Assembly (NCBI GenBank): GCA_020354125.1
Contig: CP070643.1
Span: 3,448,020-3,512,019, forward strand
Source: Betaproteobacteria bacterium
GTDB lineage: Bacteria; Pseudomonadota; Gammaproteobacteria; Burkholderiales; Eutrophovitaceae
Direction of reading: 5' to 3'
DNA: 64,000 bases
In this document: piece by piece, positions 1 to 62,404 of the stretch
Layout of the letters: each line of letters opens with the position of its first letter
Numbering within the stretch: the stretch's first letter is position 1
The notes under the pieces: generated by a model
What the model was told of the DNA's origin: nothing
The model's input: the letters and a program-made list of their open reading frames with translations, nothing else
The model's database searches: none
Made by a program: the position numbers and the translations under genes

Positions 1-60
1 TCACTCCTTGTTTGGACCGGCCAAACGGCCTCGCTCGCGCCTAGCCGGAAGCGAAAATCG

Positions 61-89
61 TTGCCATCGCACGCGCGAGCGATTATGAG
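61..89 (+). promoter_or_regulatory. candidate sigma70 promoter for radC
   Basis: A TTGCCA box (61-66) is followed after 17 bp by TATGAG (84-89), which matches four of six bases of the -10 consensus. A strong AAGGGAGGA ribosome-binding site lies at about 102-110, just before the radC ATG. This is a motif match by eye only. Confidence 0.35.
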
Positions 90-114
90 ATAGGTTCTAA
101 TAAGGGAGGATACG

Positions 115-12768: not shown

Positions 12769-13102
12769 TTGGGGTGCATTCCGGTACCATTATTTGGTTG
12801 AATTTTCGTGTCGTTGGCGCCCTTGCCGATTCGGCAATTCGGCTATACTGGTCCGGGGACGATGTCGTCACCGGTTATCGTCTCGGTGCTGTCGGTGAGT
12901 GGTGACATTTCTGACCGCCGCTAGTACTGATCGGGGCCAATACCGATTGAAGCGAGTACTGATCGGGGCTGGTACTGACCAGGTTGAATACGAACCGGCG
13001 CGAATATTGGCTGGAGCAAATACTGACTGACGCGATTCGGTTTTTTCCTCGTTATGGTCTGGCTGGTTGGTGCTGCGCCAGTGAGTCCTTGGGGGCGTGC
13101 TC
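12769..13102. other. intergenic region between hda and the HAD phosphatase gene
   Basis: No gene is supported here. The central and right part is the 16-bp tandem array. More decayed units may extend left to about 12845, where 'ATACTGGTCCGGGG' resembles the array consensus and is nearly in phase. Confidence 0.6.
12908..13035 (+). repeat. 16-bp degenerate tandem repeat array, 8 units
   Basis: Eight contiguous 16-mers, including GTACTGATCGGGGCCA, GTACTGATCGGGGCTG, GTACTGACCAGGTTGA and ATACTGACTGACGCGA, fit the consensus RTACTGAYYGGRGCGA. The period is exactly 16 with no indel across 128 bp. The first unit (12908-12923) and the seventh are the most diverged. It ends 61 bp before the next start codon. 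This is the longest array in the window. Confidence 0.9.
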
Positions 13103-21194: not shown

Positions 21195-21697
21195 GGCCGG
21201 GGGTAGCCCGGCGGCTAGTTACTTTCTCTTGCCTGCCCAAGAGAAAGTAACCAAAGAGAAGGGCACCCCAATGCCGCTTTGATCCTGCGCTGCCCGATGT
21301 CCACGCGGCGCCTGCGGAACTTGTCCGCGCAAAAAACGCGCGCGGCCTTCGAACAGTCCTCGGCGAAACCCCGCGTGCACATCGGCCTGCTCGGCGCGGC
21401 ATAAGGGGACTCTAACCCCCGGTACGTTTGGCCGAATGCATTTTGTGGAACCGAGCCAATCGGGCTGGCCTTCCGACTAGCCCCTTGTGAACCGCCTGGT
21501 AACGCGCAAGCGACAGGGGAAGTCGGCGAGGACTGTCTGAGCTCGCACATGCTCCACGCGCGGGCGAGTTCCGCAGCCGCCTGTCGTTTCGAGTAACGCA
21601 GGGCACCCCGAAGGGGCGATTCAGTGGGGCGGCCTTCCTTGGCCTACCTTTCTTGGCCGCGCAAGAAAGGTAGGTAGCCGCCGGGCTACCCCCGGCC
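21195..21697. repeat. 503-bp non-coding element with 22-bp terminal inverted repeats
   Basis: GGCCGGGGGTAGCCCGGCGG (first 20 of 22 bp, 21195-21216) is exactly inverted at 21676-21697. Just inside each end is a long hairpin: GTTACTTTCTCTTG / CAAGAGAAAGTAAC (21218-21251, 14-bp stem, 6-nt loop) and CCTACCTTTCTTG / CAAGAAAGGTAGG (21643-21674, 13-bp stem, 6-nt loop). The interior has no convincing gene. Similar hairpin-ended GC-rich elements occur as dispersed repeats in some proteobacterial genomes, as I recall. There is no transposase, so if mobile it moves in trans. Confidence 0.85.
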
Positions 21698-23781: not shown

Positions 23782-25884
23782 ATGTCTGATTTTGTCAGTT
23801 ACGAGGTTCAGGGGCCCATCGGGGTCATCACGCTCAATAACCCGCCGGTCAACGCCTTGTCGGTGAGCAAGGGAGTGCTGCAGGGAATTCTCGATGCCAT
23901 CAAGGAAGGTGAACACGATCAGCACGTCAATGGCTTTTTGTTGATCGGTGGCGGACGCAACTTTTCGGGCGGTGCCGACATTACCGAATTTGGCAAACCG
24001 CGCGAGCCCGGGTTGGCAACACTTCCAGACTTGCTCGCCTACATGGATACGGTGACTAAACCGATATTTGCAGCGTTGTCTGGCCCGACCATGGGCGGTG
24101 GCCTGGAACTGGCGTTGGGCTGTCACTACCGCGTGGCATCGCCGGACACGCTGCTGGCACTTCCCGAGGTGAAACTCGGCATTCTGCCTGGCGGTGGTGG
24201 CACGCAGCGACTGCCGCGCATTGTCGGCGCCGAACGCGCGCTCGACTTCATGATCGATGGCAATCCCATTAAGGCCGACGAGGGCGCCGAGTTGGGAATT
24301 GTTGACGAAGTGATCAAGGGCGATTTGCTGAAGAACGCGCTGACCTGGGCCAAGCGTGCAATTCGTGAAGGCAAAGGTGTGCGGCGTGCCAGTCAGTTAA
24401 CCGCATCGCTCGATCAGGATGTCGACACCTTCATCAACGCGGCGAGCGAGCGTGTTGCCAAGCGATGGCGCGGTTATCCTGCACCATTGGCAATTATCGA
24501 GTGCGTCAAGGCGGCGCTGACGCTGCCATTCGACAAGGCCATTGGTGTAGAACGCAGTGAGTTCGCCAAACTGGTGAAATCGGATGAATCGAAAGCATTG
24601 CGCCATCTGTTTTTCGCTGAGAGACAGGCGGCGAAGATCGCTGACGTGCCGCGCGACACACCGCAGATACCGATCAAGACAGCTGCGGTCATTGGCGCTG
24701 GCACCATGGGTGGCGGTATCACGATGAACTTCGCCAACGCAGGTATACCTGTGACTATGGTCGAAGTAAGCCAAGAGGCGCTTGATCGCGGCCTGGAAAC
24801 AATCCGCAAGAATTACGCCGCTACGGTGTCCAAGGGTCGTTTGTCGCAGGAAGCGATGGACAAGCGCATGGCGCTGATCAAGCCCTCGCTGGACATGAAG
24901 TCGATCGGCAAGGCGGACATTACCATCGAAGCGGTGTTCGAAGAGATGGACGTCAAGAAAGAAGTGTTCAAGAAAATGGATGCGCTCGCCAAGGCCGGTT
25001 CCATCCTCGCCACCAACACTTCGACGCTCGACGTCAACGAAATCGCCGCGACAACATCACGGCCAGAGTCTGTGATTGGCTTGCATTTCTTCAGTCCGGC
25101 CAACGTCATGCGCCTGCTCGAAGTCGTGCGTGGCGACAAGACTGGTAAGGACGTGCTCGCCACCAGCATGCAGCTGGGCAAGACCATCGCCAAAGTGCCG
25201 GTTTGCGTTGGCGTGTGTGACGGCTTTGTCGGCAACCGTATGGTTCACACCTATTTGAAAGAGGCTGGCTACCTTCTCGAAGAGGGTGCCTTGCCGCAGC
25301 AGATTGACGGTGCCATCGAAAAGTTTGGTTTTGCCATGGGGCCGTTTCGTATGAGCGACCTCGCCGGTCTCGACATCGGCTGGGCGATTCGCAAGCGCCA
25401 GGCGGCGACCCGCCCCGCCGATGAACGCTATGTCAAGATCGCGGATCTGATCTGCGAGAAAGGCCGTTTCGGACAGAAGACCGGTGCCGGCTACTATCGC
25501 TACGAAAAGGGCCGCCGTGCGGCCAATCCCGACCCGGAGATAGAAGCATTGATCGTCGAGGCTTCGCGTGAGAAGGGTATTGAGCGGCGTAATATCAGCG
25601 ACGAGGAAATTGTCGAGCGGCTGCTCTATTCACTGGTGAATGAAGGCGCGAACATACTCGATGAGGGCATTGCTCAACGTGCCTCCGATATTGACGTTAT
25701 CTATGCATTTGGCTACGGATTCCCGCGTTATCGTGGCGGCCCGATGTTCTATGCTGATCTTGTCGGGCTGGAAAAAGTGCTCGCGGCGATTCGGCGCTAC
25801 GGCGATAGTCCATTGGGCGTACACTGGAAATCTGCGCCGTTGCTTGAGAAACTTGCGGCTGAAGGCGGCAAGTTTAATCAATAA
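23782..25884 (+). CDS. bifunctional enoyl-CoA hydratase / 3-hydroxyacyl-CoA dehydrogenase
   Basis: 700 residues from the ATG at 23782, seven bases after GGAGGAG; a 15-codon longer frame has no support. The N-terminal crotonase domain (1-190) has the oxyanion hole in 'GRNFSGGADI' and 'MGGGLELALG' and a catalytic Glu in 'LPEVKLGILPGGGG'. The 3-hydroxyacyl-CoA dehydrogenase NAD domain starts at 'AAVIGAGTMGGGI' (about 298-310), with the catalytic His in 'GLHFFSPANVM'. Two C-terminal helical domains end near 'GYGFPRYRGGPMFYAD'. The architecture is that of FadB/FadJ or peroxisomal multifunctional enzymes. The thiolase gene follows after 27 bp, giving the last three steps of beta-oxidation. Confidence 0.95.
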   Translation: MSDFVSYEVQGPIGVITLNNPPVNALSVSKGVLQGILDAIKEGEHDQHVNGFLLIGGGRNFSGGADITEFGKPREPGLATLPDLLAYMDTVTKPIFAALSGPTMGGGLELALGCHYRVASPDTLLALPEVKLGILPGGGGTQRLPRIVGAERALDFMIDGNPIKADEGAELGIVDEVIKGDLLKNALTWAKRAIREGKGVRRASQLTASLDQDVDTFINAASERVAKRWRGYPAPLAIIECVKAALTLPFDKAIGVERSEFAKLVKSDESKALRHLFFAERQAAKIADVPRDTPQIPIKTAAVIGAGTMGGGITMNFANAGIPVTMVEVSQEALDRGLETIRKNYAATVSKGRLSQEAMDKRMALIKPSLDMKSIGKADITIEAVFEEMDVKKEVFKKMDALAKAGSILATNTSTLDVNEIAATTSRPESVIGLHFFSPANVMRLLEVVRGDKTGKDVLATSMQLGKTIAKVPVCVGVCDGFVGNRMVHTYLKEAGYLLEEGALPQQIDGAIEKFGFAMGPFRMSDLAGLDIGWAIRKRQAATRPADERYVKIADLICEKGRFGQKTGAGYYRYEKGRRAANPDPEIEALIVEASREKGIERRNISDEEIVERLLYSLVNEGANILDEGIAQRASDIDVIYAFGYGFPRYRGGPMFYADLVGLEKVLAAIRRYGDSPLGVHWKSAPLLEKLAAEGGKFNQ

Positions 25885-25911
25885 GCGCTTAAATGGATGG
25901 GAGGATGAACA

Positions 25912-27090
25912 ATGGCTGAGGCTGTAATCGTTTCCACCGCACGCACACCGTTGTGCAAGAGCTGGCGTGGTGCAATGAACATGACTCACGGCGCAAAACT
26001 GGGTGCGCATGCAGCCAAGGCGGCGGTACACCGCGCCGGACTCGATGTCAGTGAGATTGAGGATGTGATCATGGGCTGCGCCAATCCCGAAGGCGCGACT
26101 GGTAGCAACATTGCACGGCAAATTGCCATTCGTGCCGGGATGCCGGTGTCTGTCTCCGGAATGACGGTCAACCGCTTCTGCTCGTCCGGCCTGCAAACGG
26201 TGGCGCTCGCTTCGCAGCGAATCATGTCCGGCGAAGAAGGTATTTACGTCGCTGGTGGTGTCGAATCGATCTCCTGCGTCCAGAACGAAATGAACAAGCA
26301 CATGCTTGAAGATGAATGGCTGCATCGCCACAAGCCGGAAATTTATTGGCCAATGCTGGCGACAGCGGAAAATGTCGCCAAGCGCTACGACATCTCCCGC
26401 GAACTGCAGGATCGTTATGGCGTCGATAGTCAGAACAAGGCAGAAAAGGCGCGCGCTGAAGGCAAGTTCGACGATGAGATCGTTCCGATTACCACCAAAA
26501 TGAAAATCGTCGACAAGGAAACGGCGCAGGAATCGATCAAGGAAGTGACCGTGTCGAAGGACGAAGGTATTCGCCCCGGCACCAATTACGAAGCAGTCTC
26601 GCAGATCAAACCGGCAATTGAAGGTGGTGTCATTGCTGCCGGCAATGCCAGCCAGTTCTCCGATGGTGCTTCGGCACAGGTGGTGATGAGTGACAAGATG
26701 GCGGCCAGCAAGAACTTGACACCAATGGGGGTGTTTCGCGGATTCGCCGTTGCCGGCCTCGAACCTGACGAAATGGGCATCGGCCCGGTCTATGCAGTTC
26801 CGAAGCTGCTCCAACGTGTTGGCATGAAGGTCGAAGACATAGACTTGTGGGAACTCAACGAAGCGTTCGCCGTGCAGGTGATCTATTGCCGGGACAAGCT
26901 CGGCATTCCGAATGACCGGCTGAACGTTAATGGTGGCGCCATCGCGCTTGGCCACCCTTACGGCGTCAGCGGAAGCCGCCTCGTCGGACACGCTTTAATC
27001 GAAGGCAAGCGCCGCGGCGCCAAGAACGTCGTCGTTACCATGTGTATCGGCGGCGGCATGGGTGCCGCCGGCCTGTTTGAGGTGGTTTAG
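25912..27090 (+). CDS. acetyl-CoA C-acyltransferase (thiolase)
   Basis: 392 residues. The nucleophile is Cys90 in '[11 protein letters not shown]', with His348 in 'GHPYGVSG' and Cys378 in '[10 protein letters not shown]', so the catalytic set is complete. It cleaves 3-ketoacyl-CoA with CoA to give acetyl-CoA and a shortened acyl-CoA. It is co-transcribed with the upstream hydratase/dehydrogenase (27 bp, ribosome-binding site GGGAGGA). The pair corresponds to FadB/FadA in function, though I do not assert orthology. Confidence 0.95.
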
Positions 27091-27103
27091 TCTATTTCCC
27101 GTC

Positions 27104-27128
27104 GGAGCCGCGGTTACACCGCGGCTCC
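27104..27128. other. perfect 11-bp hairpin after the thiolase gene
   Basis: GGAGCCGCGGT TAC ACCGCGGCTCC lies 14 bp after the thiolase stop. The stem is perfect but no T run follows. It could be a Rho-dependent end, an mRNA-stabilising hairpin or part of the repeat element beginning at 27138. Confidence 0.6.
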
Positions 27129-27137
27129 CTACCAAGC

Positions 27138-27353
27138 GCTTACCGCTGAGTTCGCGGAGGACGCCGAGGAAAAGCAACGACAATTACAACGCGGCGCGCG
27201 ACGGGCTGTTGTTTGCAGTGCACTTTGCCAGTGCTGTACCACCGCGAACACCGATGACTCGACGATTCTGCTGGTCTTGGCGTGTTGGCTGTGATGTTTT
27301 TTGCTCTGAGGGTTTCCTCCGCGCCCTCTGCGTCCTTCGCGGTGAGAGGTTTA
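27138..27353. repeat. intergenic segment bounded by inverted copies of a dispersed repeat
   Basis: The left end (27138-27173, GCTTACCGCTGAGTTCGCGG and onward to GACGCCGAGGAAA) is an imperfect inverted copy of the right end (27312-27353, TTTCCTCCGCGCCCTCTGCG and onward to GGTGAGAGGTTTA). The right end also matches 21773-21815. The 140 bp between have no gene. It fills most of the 305-bp thiolase to acyl-CoA-dehydrogenase gap. Confidence 0.6.
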
Positions 27354-27395
27354 CTTTGGCTTAAGTTGAAGGTGCTCCATTTCTGATCGATTGAT

Positions 27396-29201
27396 ATGCA
27401 GTCAAAGATTCTCAATCCACGCGATATCAGCTTCATTCTCTATGAACTGCTCGACATCGAATCGGTGACCGCATGGCCGCGGTTTGCCGAGCACGGTCGC
27501 GAGACTTTCGACGCAGCGCTGGAAACTGCAAGCAAGATTGCCGCGGAAAAGTTTGCGCCACACAACCGAAAGGCGGATCTGAACGAGCCGACTTTTGATG
27601 GCAAGCGCGTGAGCATGATTCCGGAAGTCGGCGAGGCGCTGCGTGCGTTCAACGATGCCGGGTTCCTTTCGGCGACGCAGGATTTCGACGACAATGGCAT
27701 GCAGCTGCCGTGGACTGTCGCCCAGGCCTGTCTGGCGTGGTTTCATGCAGCCAATATTTCCACCGCAGCGTATCCGTTCCTGTCGATTGCGAACGGCAAT
27801 CTCATGGAGGTATTCGGCAGCGAGCAACAAAAGGCGCGTTATCTTCCCGGTCTGCGCTCGGGGCGCTTCTCCGGCACCATGTGCTTGTCTGAGACGCAAG
27901 CCGGGTCCTCGCTGTCCGATATTCGCTGTAGTGCGGTGAAACAAAAAGATGGCAGCTATCGATTGCGCGGTAGCAAGATGTGGATTTCGGCAGGCGAGCA
28001 CGAACTGTCGGAGAACATCATTCATCTGGTACTGGCGCGTATTGAAGGCGCGCCCCCGGGTGTCAAAGGCATCTCGCTATTTATCGTTCCGAAGTTTCGT
28101 CTCAACAATGACGGCTCGATCGGTGAACGCAATGAAGTGGCACTGGCAGGGCTTAACCACAAGATGGGCTATCGCGGTACGACAAACTGCGTGCTCAGTT
28201 TCGGTGAAGGCGAGGGCGCCTGGGCAGAGCTGATCGGCGATCCTAATCGTGGACTGGCGTGCATGTTCCACATGATGAACGAGGCACGCATCGGCGTCGG
28301 CATGGGTGCCGCAGCACTTGGCTACACGGGTTATTTGCACGCGCTTGCTTACGCTCGCGAACGGCCCCAAGGTCGCTTGCCGGGTGCCAAGGACCCGACG
28401 CAACCACAGTTACCGATCGTAGAGCATGCTGACGTGCGCCGCATGCTGCTTGCGCAGAAAGCCTTTGCTGAAGGGGCTCTGGCGTTATGTCTGATCTGCG
28501 CGCGGCTGGTCGACGAAGAACACAGTCCTGATAAAGATGCACAAAGCGATGCCGCCTTGCTGCTCGAAATGATGACACCGATCGCCAAGGCCTGGCCTTC
28601 AGAGTTCTGTGTCGAGGCCAATAGCCTGGCGGTTCAGGTACACGGCGGCTATGGCTACACGCGAGAATTTCCTGTCGAGCAGTTCTACCGTGACAACAGA
28701 CTCAATCCAATTCACGAAGGCACCAACGGTATACAGAGTATCGATCTGCTCGGCCGCAAGGCCGGCATGCAGGATGGCGCGGCGATCCAGTTACTGGCAC
28801 GGGAAATTCACGCAACCGTGCGCGAAGCATCTAAATGCCAATCCGATGAGTTGCGCCAATGTGGCAAGTCCCTGCTCGAAGCGTTGGACTGCATTATGGA
28901 CGTGACACGTGACCTGTTGTGTGTGATTGACAGGGGAGAAACGGAGATCGCGCTGGCAAATTCGGCGGTGTACCTGAATCTTGTCGGGCACACTGTCATA
29001 GCCTGGGTCTGGTTGCGCCAAGCCCTGGTTGCGGTTAAACGACTGGGCGCCGAAACACCTGAAGAACGCGACTTCTATCAGGGCAAGCTGCAGGCCTGCA
29101 GTTATTTCTTTCGTTGGGAGCTTCCCAGAACGAAGCACTGGTTCGAGTTGCTGCACAGCCGCGACGCGACCTGCCTGGAAATGCAGGACAGGTGGTTCTA
29201 G
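27396..29201 (+). CDS. acyl-CoA dehydrogenase, DmdC-like
   Basis: 601 residues, the longer acyl-CoA dehydrogenase type with a C-terminal extension. FAD- and substrate-binding stretches are 'GTMCLSETQAGSSLSDI' and 'KMWISAGEH'. The catalytic Glu is at about 441 in 'NPIHEGTNGIQSIDLLGRK'. A further helical domain (about 460-600) follows, as in 3-(methylthio)propionyl-CoA dehydrogenase DmdC. It introduces the alpha-beta double bond in an acyl-CoA, the first beta-oxidation step. With the DmdB-like ligase it recalls DMSP-demethylation downstream chemistry, but no dmdA is visible, so a general fatty-acid role is as likely. Confidence 0.93.
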   Translation: MQSKILNPRDISFILYELLDIESVTAWPRFAEHGRETFDAALETASKIAAEKFAPHNRKADLNEPTFDGKRVSMIPEVGEALRAFNDAGFLSATQDFDDNGMQLPWTVAQACLAWFHAANISTAAYPFLSIANGNLMEVFGSEQQKARYLPGLRSGRFSGTMCLSETQAGSSLSDIRCSAVKQKDGSYRLRGSKMWISAGEHELSENIIHLVLARIEGAPPGVKGISLFIVPKFRLNNDGSIGERNEVALAGLNHKMGYRGTTNCVLSFGEGEGAWAELIGDPNRGLACMFHMMNEARIGVGMGAAALGYTGYLHALAYARERPQGRLPGAKDPTQPQLPIVEHADVRRMLLAQKAFAEGALALCLICARLVDEEHSPDKDAQSDAALLLEMMTPIAKAWPSEFCVEANSLAVQVHGGYGYTREFPVEQFYRDNRLNPIHEGTNGIQSIDLLGRKAGMQDGAAIQLLAREIHATVREASKCQSDELRQCGKSLLEALDCIMDVTRDLLCVIDRGETEIALANSAVYLNLVGHTVIAWVWLRQALVAVKRLGAETPEERDFYQGKLQACSYFFRWELPRTKHWFELLHSRDATCLEMQDRWF

Positions 29202-32117: not shown

Positions 32118-32744
32118 ATGAAAAGATCGTTTCCCAAACCGTTCTACAGATGGCGCCCGCATCCCTGGCATGGTCTTGAGCTTGGGCCCGAGCCGCCGCG
32201 CATCGTGCATGCGTTTATCGAGATTTGCCCGTTTGATCTGGTCAAGTACGAGGTGGACAAAACCACCGGCTACCTGCGTGTGGACAGGCCGCACAGGACT
32301 TCCTCCCAGCATCCGACCTTGTATGGATTCATTCCGAAAACGTTCTGCGGCGACAAGGTCGGCGCACTGATGAAGGACGCCGAGCGTGGCGATGGCGACC
32401 CGCTGGATATTTGCGTGCTGAGTGAGCGGCCCATATCAAAAACCGAGATATTGCTCAATGCACGAGTTGTCGGCGGGCTTCCGATGTTGGATCACGGTGA
32501 AGCGGACGACAAGATCATCGCTGTCCTTGAAAAGGATCCTCTTTGGGCGTCTGTAGATGACATCAGTGATTTGGCGCCGGCATTGATTGAACGACTGCGG
32601 CATTACTTCATGACTTACAAGCTGATGCCGGGCGAGGAAAGCAAGGTCTCCATTGGCCCGGCCTATGGCTACGAACATGCAAAACGCGTCATTCAGGCGG
32701 CAATTGACGACTACGAGGATGAGTTCGGGTCTGACGCTCGCTGA
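32118..32744 (+). CDS. ppa: inorganic pyrophosphatase (family I)
   Basis: 208 residues. It hydrolyses pyrophosphate in the cytoplasm. The family I active site is '[14 protein letters not shown]' (about 95-108), with three metal-binding Asp residues. Upstream Lys/Glu/Arg residues lie in '[15 protein letters not shown]', the Tyr is in '[10 protein letters not shown]', and '[14 protein letters not shown]' carries the later Asp and Lys. It is longer than the E. coli enzyme by about 30 residues, mainly at the N-terminus. No operon partner is evident; the downstream gap contains an 18-bp repeat array. Confidence 0.92.
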
Positions 32745-33077
32745 CCACTGCTCAACACGTGGCGTGGCGCTCTGCGTGGCGCCCCATACATTCTGAAGCT
32801 CGCCAAACGCTGTAACGCGCAAACCGGCACGCGCATCCATTCCCATCGCATCAACGGGGCACATTTATTGCACCCATACTGCCGTCCCGCCTCCTTGTGA
32901 TGGAGGCGTTGATCGGTGGTGCTCGAGATCAAACTGGTGCTCGAGATCAAACTGGTGCTCGAGATCAAACTGGTGCTCGAGATCAAGCTGGTGGCCAAGA
33001 CAAGCGCCTAGGACCCCCATCACGATCACGCCCAATTCTGAGGCCCGACGCCGCGTCACACTGCAAATGGGGACCTC
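32745..33077. other. intergenic region between ppa and the DUF3592 gene
   Basis: 333 bp with no supported gene. The only feature is the 18-bp tandem array at 32918-32989. Reading frames across it give regular hexapeptide repeats (for example 'LEHQFD') purely because the unit length is a multiple of three, and I do not call them as genes. Confidence 0.6.
32918..32989 (+). repeat. 18-bp tandem repeat array, 4 near-identical units
   Basis: GGTGCTCGAGATCAAACT occurs three times identically (32918, 32936, 32954), then once as GGTGCTCGAGATCAAGCT (32972). A decayed fifth unit, GGTGGCCAAGACAAGCGC, follows. It is the youngest-looking array in the window and contains a CTCGAG palindrome in each unit. 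Confidence 0.95.
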
Positions 33078-34976
33078 ATGCGCGTACTGCGAGCACTGCC
33101 AGCCCTGATTTTCGGACTGATGTTTGCCGGCGGCGGGCTGTTCTTCCTGTCCCAATTGGCGCTTCCGATGTGGCAGGACTGGCGGGCCATGCGAGACTGG
33201 CAGCCGGCATACGCAATGCTGCGGTCGGTATCCGGAAGCGAGAATGAGACGAAAGCCAGCTACCAGTACGAGTTTGACGGGGTTGGCTACAGCGGCGACC
33301 GAATCTACGTCTCATCCTTTAACGACAACATCGGTCCTTACCACAAGAACTTGCTTGCCAAGCTGAGACAGCATCAGCGTAACGGTGAGTCTGTGCCGGT
33401 ATGGGTCAATCCGCAGGATCCGGGACAAGCCGTAATCGATCGCAACATGCGCTGGGGTCTGTTCGCCCTGATGAGCGCTTTCTGTTCAGTGTTTGTGCTG
33501 ATCGGTTTGCTGGTCGCGTATGCGGGTATTCGTTCAGCCGGCAAGAAGCCGGGCTCCGGGCGGCCATCGCTTTCCGCACTGCGCCGCGAATGGAAGCAGA
33601 AGAACAGCGATCCGCAGTTCACCATGAGTTTTCTCGAATACGCGCAGCAGCGGGCCGCGGAGTTCGATGAGCAGGAAAAGAGCATGGCGCCGCAACTCGA
33701 TTGGCACCTGCGCAAAGGATGGGGCACATCGACAATTCGCTCCGAAGCCAAGAGCGGGCTGATTGCGATCTGGGGGTTCGCCGTTTTCTGGAATGCGATC
33801 AGCTGGCCACTCATTCTGGTTTTGCCCAAAGAGCTTGCCAAGGAGAACTACCCGGCCTTGTTTACCCTGGCGTTCCCGCTGGTCGGCCTGTTTTTGCTTT
33901 ACCAGGCTCTGCGCAAGTTGCACGAGTACCGTCGATTCGGGGTAGTGACATTCGAGATGGACCCTTACCCTGGTTCAATTGGCGGCCATGTCGGTGGACA
34001 AGTTCGCGTCTCTCGTCTCGATTACGGAACCGCAACGTATTCGACATCGAAGTTATTGGTTCGCCTCGAGTGTGTGTACTCCTATATTTCCGGCAGCGGC
34101 AAGAACCGTTCTCGTCGGGAAGATGTCAAGTGGGCGGAGGAAGGCGCGCCACACATCGAAAGCTCAATTCAGGGTATCAGGCTGAGCTTCCATTTCAATG
34201 TGCCGGAGAATCTGCCGGCAGCAGATGTGGAGCAAACCGGTGCTTATCACTTCTGGCGCCTGAGCATAAAGGCGGACATTCCTGGTGTTGACCTCGATCG
34301 TCAGTTCAATATACCGGTGTTCAAAAGGGCTGAAACAACAAGCAGTGTCCGCGAAGACATCAGTGCGCAAGTCGCAGAGAAGAAGGAGCAGAAGTCGGAA
34401 GCCGCCAGGCAATCAATCGAGCAAGGCAAATTTGATTTGCCCGGTCTTTCGCGCGCGATGCGGATCAGTGATTACGGCGGCGAGATCAGAATGGCGTTTC
34501 CGATGTTTCGCAACAAAGTGTTGTCGGTGTTTGCAGCCGTTTTTGCCGGTGGCTTTGGATTCGCGAGTTACCAGATGTTCTTGATGGTGCTCAAGGGCGG
34601 GGTTATGGGCGTATTCATCGGCCTGTTTAGTGTGCCGTTCGTCCTGGTAGCCATCGTTGCCTCACTCGCCACCATTTACCTGCCGCTCAACAATCTGCGG
34701 GTACGCATTGCCCGCAACGAGATCACTGTGTTGCGGCGGTTGTTGTTCATCCCTGTTTTCTATCGCCGGTTGAGTGTCACGGATGTGTCCCATCTCACGA
34801 TCAAGAGCACAGGCAGCACCGGTCAGGGGGTGAACAAGGTGGGCCATTTCAAGGTCCTCGCGCACGACAGATACGGCAAGAAAGTAACACTCGCAGAAGA
34901 CATCGACGGTGAGGCTGTTGCCGGGCATTTTCGTGATTATCTCGCTCGGCGTTTGAACGTTGAAGTGCGCAAGTGA
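33078..34976 (+). CDS. DUF3592 domain-containing membrane protein
   Basis: 632 residues. An N-terminal helix (about 5-30) leads to a DUF3592 region ('ASYQYEFDGVGYSGDRIYV', then 'VPVWVNPQDPGQAVIDR') and another helix (about 130-155). Two helices follow around 230-275, a soluble beta-rich domain lies at about 290-440, and a final helix pair is near 480-530. It is probably an inner-membrane protein with large soluble segments. Function is unknown. The ATG follows a weak ribosome-binding site after the repeat-bearing gap. Confidence 0.8.
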   Translation: MRVLRALPALIFGLMFAGGGLFFLSQLALPMWQDWRAMRDWQPAYAMLRSVSGSENETKASYQYEFDGVGYSGDRIYVSSFNDNIGPYHKNLLAKLRQHQRNGESVPVWVNPQDPGQAVIDRNMRWGLFALMSAFCSVFVLIGLLVAYAGIRSAGKKPGSGRPSLSALRREWKQKNSDPQFTMSFLEYAQQRAAEFDEQEKSMAPQLDWHLRKGWGTSTIRSEAKSGLIAIWGFAVFWNAISWPLILVLPKELAKENYPALFTLAFPLVGLFLLYQALRKLHEYRRFGVVTFEMDPYPGSIGGHVGGQVRVSRLDYGTATYSTSKLLVRLECVYSYISGSGKNRSRREDVKWAEEGAPHIESSIQGIRLSFHFNVPENLPAADVEQTGAYHFWRLSIKADIPGVDLDRQFNIPVFKRAETTSSVREDISAQVAEKKEQKSEAARQSIEQGKFDLPGLSRAMRISDYGGEIRMAFPMFRNKVLSVFAAVFAGGFGFASYQMFLMVLKGGVMGVFIGLFSVPFVLVAIVASLATIYLPLNNLRVRIARNEITVLRRLLFIPVFYRRLSVTDVSHLTIKSTGSTGQGVNKVGHFKVLAHDRYGKKVTLAEDIDGEAVAGHFRDYLARRLNVEVRK

Positions 34977-61453: not shown

Positions 61454-62404
61454 ATGGCTATTTATTTCGCATACGGGTCCAATCTCGACGCGCAAAACTG
61501 GGCGGAGTTTTGCGCGCGCTATGATGCCGACCCGGCTTGCATGAAGCCCATCGGGACCGCATGGCTGCCTGATTGCGAACTCGTGTTCAATTACCGTTCG
61601 GTGCTACGTGCCGGCGGCGCCTTGAACATTCGCGAGCGCAAAGGCCATTTTGTACACGGCGCGTTGTTTGAAGTCACAGAGCTCGGCTGGGAGGTGCTCG
61701 ATATCAAGGAGAGCGTGGCAAAGGGCTGCTACACGCGGATCGAGCACATGGCAATCATGCACGGTGGCCGACCGCTGCCGGTGACGACTTACCAGGTTAC
61801 GCCGCAGCGACAAGAAGGATTCGTACCGCCTTCCGACGAATACTCGGAGATTGTGTCGCGCGGCTTAAAGGCGTTTGGCTTGCCGTCAACGCAGTACGAA
61901 AATGCCGCGCGCAATCAAAGGTCCGAGCCTGATGCCGAGGGCGTTTTCGTCTACGGCACACTGATGCGCGGCGAAACCAATCACGACGCCATCCGGCAGC
62001 ACGACCCGGAAGAAACGCTACGCGGTCGCGCGCGTGGGCGGTTACATGCGACGGCAGCCGACTATCCGATGCTCGACGTGCACGAACATCAAGTCCACGA
62101 AGTGGTGCATGGTGAGTTCATGCGCTTCTTTGATGCCGGTCCGGTGCTTGAAACGCTCGACGAGGTAGAGACTTTTGGTGGCTATGCACGTGACGGTAAT
62201 GAGTACGTTCGTACGCTGGTCGAAGTCGACACCGGTCATTCCACAACGCGCCTGGCGTGGACCTACGTGGTGGCCGATCGTTCGATCATTGGCGAGCGTA
62301 TCGAATCAGGCTGCTGGCGCACGCATCGCGGCATTGCGCCCGCGGCGGTCGACGATCAAGATGCCGGGCAAAGAGATACAGAACCCGAAGCCATCGGTGA
62401 GTAA
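61454..62404 (+). CDS. two-domain gamma-glutamylcyclotransferase-like protein
   Basis: 316 residues made of two GGCT/AIG2 folds in tandem. The first starts 'IYFAYGSNLDAQNW' (about 3-16) with the catalytic Glu in 'LDIKES' (about residue 80). The second starts 'GVFVYGTLMRGETNH' (about 165-179) with Glu in 'ETLDEVETFGG'. Each half keeps the YGS/YGT substrate loop and acid. GGCT enzymes release 5-oxoproline from gamma-glutamyl amines or glutathione. The fusion could be an intramolecular dimer. A repeat array follows immediately after its stop. Confidence 0.88.
   Translation: MAIYFAYGSNLDAQNWAEFCARYDADPACMKPIGTAWLPDCELVFNYRSVLRAGGALNIRERKGHFVHGALFEVTELGWEVLDIKESVAKGCYTRIEHMAIMHGGRPLPVTTYQVTPQRQEGFVPPSDEYSEIVSRGLKAFGLPSTQYENAARNQRSEPDAEGVFVYGTLMRGETNHDAIRQHDPEETLRGRARGRLHATAADYPMLDVHEHQVHEVVHGEFMRFFDAGPVLETLDEVETFGGYARDGNEYVRTLVEVDTGHSTTRLAWTYVVADRSIIGERIESGCWRTHRGIAPAAVDDQDAGQRDTEPEAIGE

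Follow-up and report, generated by a model that had tools for sequence, protein, structure and literature searches.

The window analysed in this study, a stretch of 64,000 nucleotides, corresponds to positions 3448020-3512019 of a 4.24-Mb single-contig genome (G000). At 32118-32744 of the window it carries ppa, the inorganic pyrophosphatase gene (+ strand, 208 aa; PF00719, E 5.5e-43), which is followed at 33078-34976 by a gene for a DUF3592 protein (+ strand, 632 aa; PF12158, E 2.4e-10). Hydrophobic stretches make the product of the latter a putative membrane protein. The ppa stop at 32744 and the ATG at 33078 enclose the 333-bp gap that had been described from the sequence alone. A Pfam scan of six neighboring proteins assigned them as GNAT acetyltransferase, Ppa, DUF3592, GFA, molybdopterin oxidoreductase and SDR.

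The gap harbors four 18-bp units arranged head to tail at 32918-32989, located at 32918-32935, 32936-32953, 32954-32971 and 32972-32989. Units 1 to 3 are identical and read GGTGCTCGAGATCAAACT each, and unit 4 differs by a single base, a G at 32987 of the + strand where units 1 to 3 have an A. Tandem Repeats Finder (TRF) delimited an array at 32917-32993, to which no strand was assigned, with a period of 18 bp, 4.3 copies, 98% matches and a score of 147. The sequence-only reading was therefore correct in its coordinates, the number of units and the single difference. As the 18-bp period continues past unit 4 to 32993, the array is bounded by a 5-bp direct repeat, TGGTG, on the + strand. Its left copy lies at 32917-32921, and its right copy at 32989-32993 is composed of the last base of unit 4 and the start of a partial fifth unit; both copies may have seeded slippage. 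The array begins 172 bp past the ppa stop, and 88 bp separate the last full unit from the ATG of the DUF3592 gene.

Such near-identical head-to-tail units lie far beyond chance expectation. When the gap was shuffled 500 times with its dinucleotide content preserved, no shuffle reached a TRF score of 50; the top one scored 43 as compared to 147 for the array. A scan of the window allowing up to 3 mismatches found these four units only. The array is positioned outside genes; open frames overlapping it exist, none of them with support. The gap had been called featureless, which held for promoter-like and terminator-like sites, none of which were found in 32700-33140 (promoters were checked by a simple sigma-70 consensus only), but not for secondary structure. 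Just upstream of the array, at 32888-32908 of the + strand, a hairpin with a 7-bp stem, CGCCTCC-TTGTGAT-GGAGGCG, is present in the sequence and in the RNA fold; no T run follows it. Rfam families had no matches in the window at the gathering threshold.

To place the array in context, intergenic arrays with a TRF score of 50 or more and a period of 9-60 were counted under one common mask. This simple mask treated every ORF of 300 bp or longer as coding, in place of gene calls, and the window arrays 10806 and 21857 were thereby counted as coding. The own-genome sample consisted of 20 stretches of 20 kb from G000 (400 kb), giving 464 kb together with the 64-kb window. We found 31 intergenic arrays in these 464 kb, 6 in the window and 25 in the sample, while shuffled intergenic DNA gave 0.1 and 0.2 arrays, respectively. 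Including the coding ones, the 400-kb sample contained 40 arrays. Units of 13-19 bp made up 26 of the 31 intergenic arrays; the lower limit of unit size is owed in part to how arrays were detected, which does not apply to the scarcity of units of 22-30 bp. Since 20 of the 31 periods were not multiples of 3, this class of arrays is not coding. Hence, the 32917 array is not special in its own genome, but one of many intergenic arrays. Its cleanness had been set apart from the worn arrays elsewhere. This distinction is valid within the window and is lost in the genome sample: similar arrays with worn units (67-90% matches) do occur in this genome, but 2 of the 31 intergenic arrays combine at least 3 copies with at least 95% matches, the 32917 array and the array L112:14656-14729.

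A sequence-specific element common to the arrays was considered and rejected. Array units shared 921 5-mers as compared to 779.5 +/- 55.9 in 200 background draws, the largest of which gave 961. This comparison was based on 48 of 50 arrays from a relaxed search, two arrays with periods above 36 having been dropped. No single 5-, 6- or 7-mer in the 48 arrays exceeded the largest null value. The slight 5-mer excess is thus not accompanied by a common motif. Four intergenic arrays of this genome, L101:2508-2569, L102:4091-4163, L115:9781-9835 and L100:5276-5312, have GTCAC-type short repeats in common, whereas the units of different loci are for the most part unrelated.

Further copies of the 32917 unit were sought in several collections. 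In the own genome, exact matches to its 15-base core were confined to the four array copies, and a match with one mismatch was found at one other place, window position 61693, where only 14 of the 18 unit bases fit. Matches with up to 3 mismatches amounted to 370, versus 78 for a reversed control. We take this excess for the likeness of the core to common codons, which is a supposition. The array pattern had no match in the genome_contigs and viral_contigs collections, in which the own record was possibly left out. Iteron arrays of replication origins are made up of multiple direct repeats, each about 18-22 bp long, and the 32917 array resembles them in having several direct repeats near that unit size. 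An array of the plasmid iteron type was nevertheless rejected: the six Pfam-scanned neighbors include no replication-initiator gene, and the whole gap had no match among plasmid records.

Three readings other than a functionless repeat have to be weighed. Each unit might be a putative binding site, via CTCGAG or GATC, controlling the DUF3592 gene or the ppa end, with the copy number tuning expression. In favor of such a role, the sites are arranged head to tail upstream of the DUF3592 gene, 88 bp from its ATG. We nevertheless regard it as improbable. The same simple consensus search left the gap without a promoter-like site, and the fold of its RNA was no better than that of shuffles (z -0.82). 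The CTCGAG palindrome, to which attention had been drawn before, is indeed present in every unit but carries no visible meaning. It was seen 234 times in the 400-kb own-genome sample versus 241 expected and is thus neither enriched nor avoided; GATC was likewise near expectation (2424 seen versus 2545 expected). Moreover, with close copies of the unit confined to this array in the genome, a regulator would have no second such array to act on, and the neighboring genes and the gap are not conserved together.

The array might alternatively belong to a small protein gene. A 31-codon frame at 32916-33011 of the + strand, a candidate only, would start with GTG behind a GGAGG at 32902-32906 and encode a putative peptide of 31 residues with VLEIKL repeats. 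The GGAGG is placed 9 nt ahead of the GTG, the 18-bp period keeps the frame, and the sole substitution is silent in it (AAA to AAG, Lys). On the other hand, the GGAGG sits in the stem of the hairpin, and openness means little where 5 of the 6 frames through the unit are open. Relatives of the array, with which the frame might be compared, were found neither in the congeners nor in genome_contigs and viral_contigs. In this class, most periods are moreover not divisible by 3, which speaks against coding. We therefore consider a peptide gene highly improbable. Hardly credible at all is an inflation of the unit number by the assembly. The genome is a single contig of unknown sequencing method, which leaves room for such an error. 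However, usual reads are longer than the 72-bp array, a distinct base sets one unit apart, and the worn arrays of the same genome are hardly something that an assembler would make up. The congener G002, an assembly of 70 contigs, has this class of arrays too.

The locus was compared with three further genomes of the genus, G001, G002 and G003, in none of which a counterpart of the gap was found. DNA of ppa is present in G002 (80%) and G003 (78%), but the downstream neighbors differ. The DUF3592 gene had no match in G001 and G002; in G003 it is located on another contig than ppa and its start is cut by the contig end. A stretch of G001 matches window positions 24001-28520, and the part from ppa to the DUF3592 gene was covered by no G001 match. 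Near the DUF3592 gene of G003, an intergenic array with 5.3 copies of a 14-bp unit was noted (L179:10810-10885). In a contig titled as a Klebsiella pneumoniae MAG (L026), the ppa product is 79% identical to the betaproteobacterial Ppa described here, and the title looks wrong.

No position in G001 could be assigned to arrays 6647 and 32917. Eight other own-genome array loci, six in the window and two in the sample, were placed there by means of both flanks, of which the left one at locus 21857 is only 63 bp long. Segments comprising the array plus 30 bp on each side were compared. The G001 segment was shorter at 6 of the 8 loci, by 26 to 119 bp, and equal at 2. Selecting loci by the presence of an own-genome array biases the direction of change, 10806 excepted. 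The shorter ones were 10806 (102 bp in the own genome, 69 bp in G001), 12920 (176 and 98 bp), 16963 (139 and 68 bp), 62451 (137 and 111 bp), L112:14656 (165 and 83 bp) and L107:10822 (192 and 73 bp). Segment 21857 measured 92 bp in both genomes, and 55913 measured 106 bp as compared to 107 bp in G001, where its repeat is undetectable. Strict TRF reported an array in G001 at none of the eight placed loci and relaxed TRF at one, L107:10822, with 2.2 copies versus 7.8 in the own genome. At 12920, about two units are kept in G001 as judged by eye. The array at L107:10819-10950 has 17-bp units in 7.6-7.8 copies in the own genome and one to two units in G001. The 10806 array is absent from G001, G002 and G003 alike, for which a gain in the own lineage is the simplest reading. 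Thus, arrays of this class change between species, as seen at loci other than 32917.

Taken together, 32917-32993 is in all probability an ordinary intergenic minisatellite, a VNTR-type locus made by replication slippage and most likely without function. The slippage mechanism, the youth of the array and the absence of function are all three properties that we infer. The ancestral state, as deduced from the sequence, would have been a single 18-bp stretch, TGGTG-CTCGAGATCAAGC-TGGTG. Slipping of the nascent strand between the two TGGTG copies may have produced an 18-bp duplication, and the resulting two units may have grown to four by more slippage or by unequal exchange. As the stretch from ppa to the DUF3592 gene is non-coding, selection would tolerate such insertions in it.

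A recent expansion had been proposed for this array. A fairly recent one stands as the likeliest reading, the units being near-identical and private and comparable arrays being shorter in G001 at six of the eight placed loci. Since the locus was placed in none of the three congeners, however, neither expansion nor copy-number change is seen at the locus itself, and the expansion of this very array is something that we infer. By a star-tree bound, three 18-bp copies free of changes are compatible with as much as about 0.06 substitutions per site. Clean units limit the age of the array only loosely, as slippage that is still going on can also keep an old array clean. Copy-number change at the present time is plausible as a candidate property of the locus. 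The array would be a candidate marker to tell strains of this uncultured lineage apart, although it matters little singly.

The density of arrays differed strongly within the genus. G002 contained 16 intergenic arrays in 400 kb, G003 2 in 170 kb and G001 1 in 400 kb. Outside the genus, none were found in 343 kb from three other family members and 2 in 400 kb from four order-level genomes. The own sample, with 58 arrays per 100 kb of intergenic DNA, was markedly richer than G001 (p = 1e-6) and than the four order-level controls, whose 39 kb of intergenic DNA contained 2 arrays (p = 9e-6). A mixed background was drawn from 80 loci spanning many phyla, all in named genomes and one of them (L018) being G003. 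Its 52 kb of intergenic DNA contained 17 arrays, or 33 per 100 kb, and the own sample was not significantly richer (p = 0.087). This comparison weakens the idea that the genome is exceptional among bacteria. The relaxed TRF setting yielded 103 arrays per 100 kb of intergenic DNA in the own genome, 81 in G002, 41 in G001 and 53 in the controls, with about 7-10 per set in shuffles, and hence shrinks the contrast between the own genome and G001. Genomes differ a lot in array density, and G000 is on the high side without being unique. The contrast between lineages is the sole part of these results that might interest a specialist: 31 arrays in 464 kb versus 1 in 400 kb in G001 would offer a clean comparison for asking what determines how often short tandem duplications arise in bacteria. 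Four candidate causes gave no hint. A match to Ku was found in none of the four genomes of the genus. MutS, RecJ and ExoVII occur in G000, G001 and G002 alike, and G003, which is 71% complete, was the sole genome without matches to them. The content of these four does not account for the scarcity of arrays in G001.

A further possibility is that tandem duplication proceeds at an elevated rate in the lineage of G000 and G002, favoring sizes of about 14-18 bp in sequences unrelated to one another; the 32917 array would then be a fresh product. We regard this as unlikely. Among exact repeats of at least 12 bases in own intergenic DNA, 11 of the 13 at offsets of up to 25 fall at 14-19, and G001 shows no such repeats at those offsets despite the same G+C and intergenic share. 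Of the 15 arrays in coding regions of the 400-kb sample, 11 had periods divisible by 3, as the reading frame would demand, and 8 of those were 15 or 18. In G002, only 8 of 19 coding arrays had such periods. The three other family members also show offsets 15 and 18, and the mixed 80-locus background contained many 13-18-bp arrays too. These last three observations suggest that the preference for 14-18 bp may be general.

Short tandem arrays are also known from VNTR loci of Burkholderia pseudomallei. The report on them (PMC1853098) gives 70-102 arrays per Mb by TRF, mostly intergenic, with rates above 1e-5 per locus per generation, mostly 6-9-bp units and partial duplication elsewhere for 36.3% of the arrays. 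Our 40 arrays in 400 kb resemble that density, the two counts having been obtained with different cut-offs. In contrast to the units described there, those found here mostly are 13-19 bp long, and there is little sharing between loci.

Some other elements of the window were noted. The 153 bp at 21257-21409 are 97% identical to G003:C177, while the adjoining matches reach 74-78%; no Rfam family was assigned to this segment, and ARAGORN predicted no tRNA in the window. Window positions 1-100 comprise an element with copies in G001 at 95-96% and in G003 at 83%, away from the main match of the flank. A short dispersed repeat at 27310-27352, just upstream of an ORF starting at 27396, has several further matches in G001 at 84-93%.
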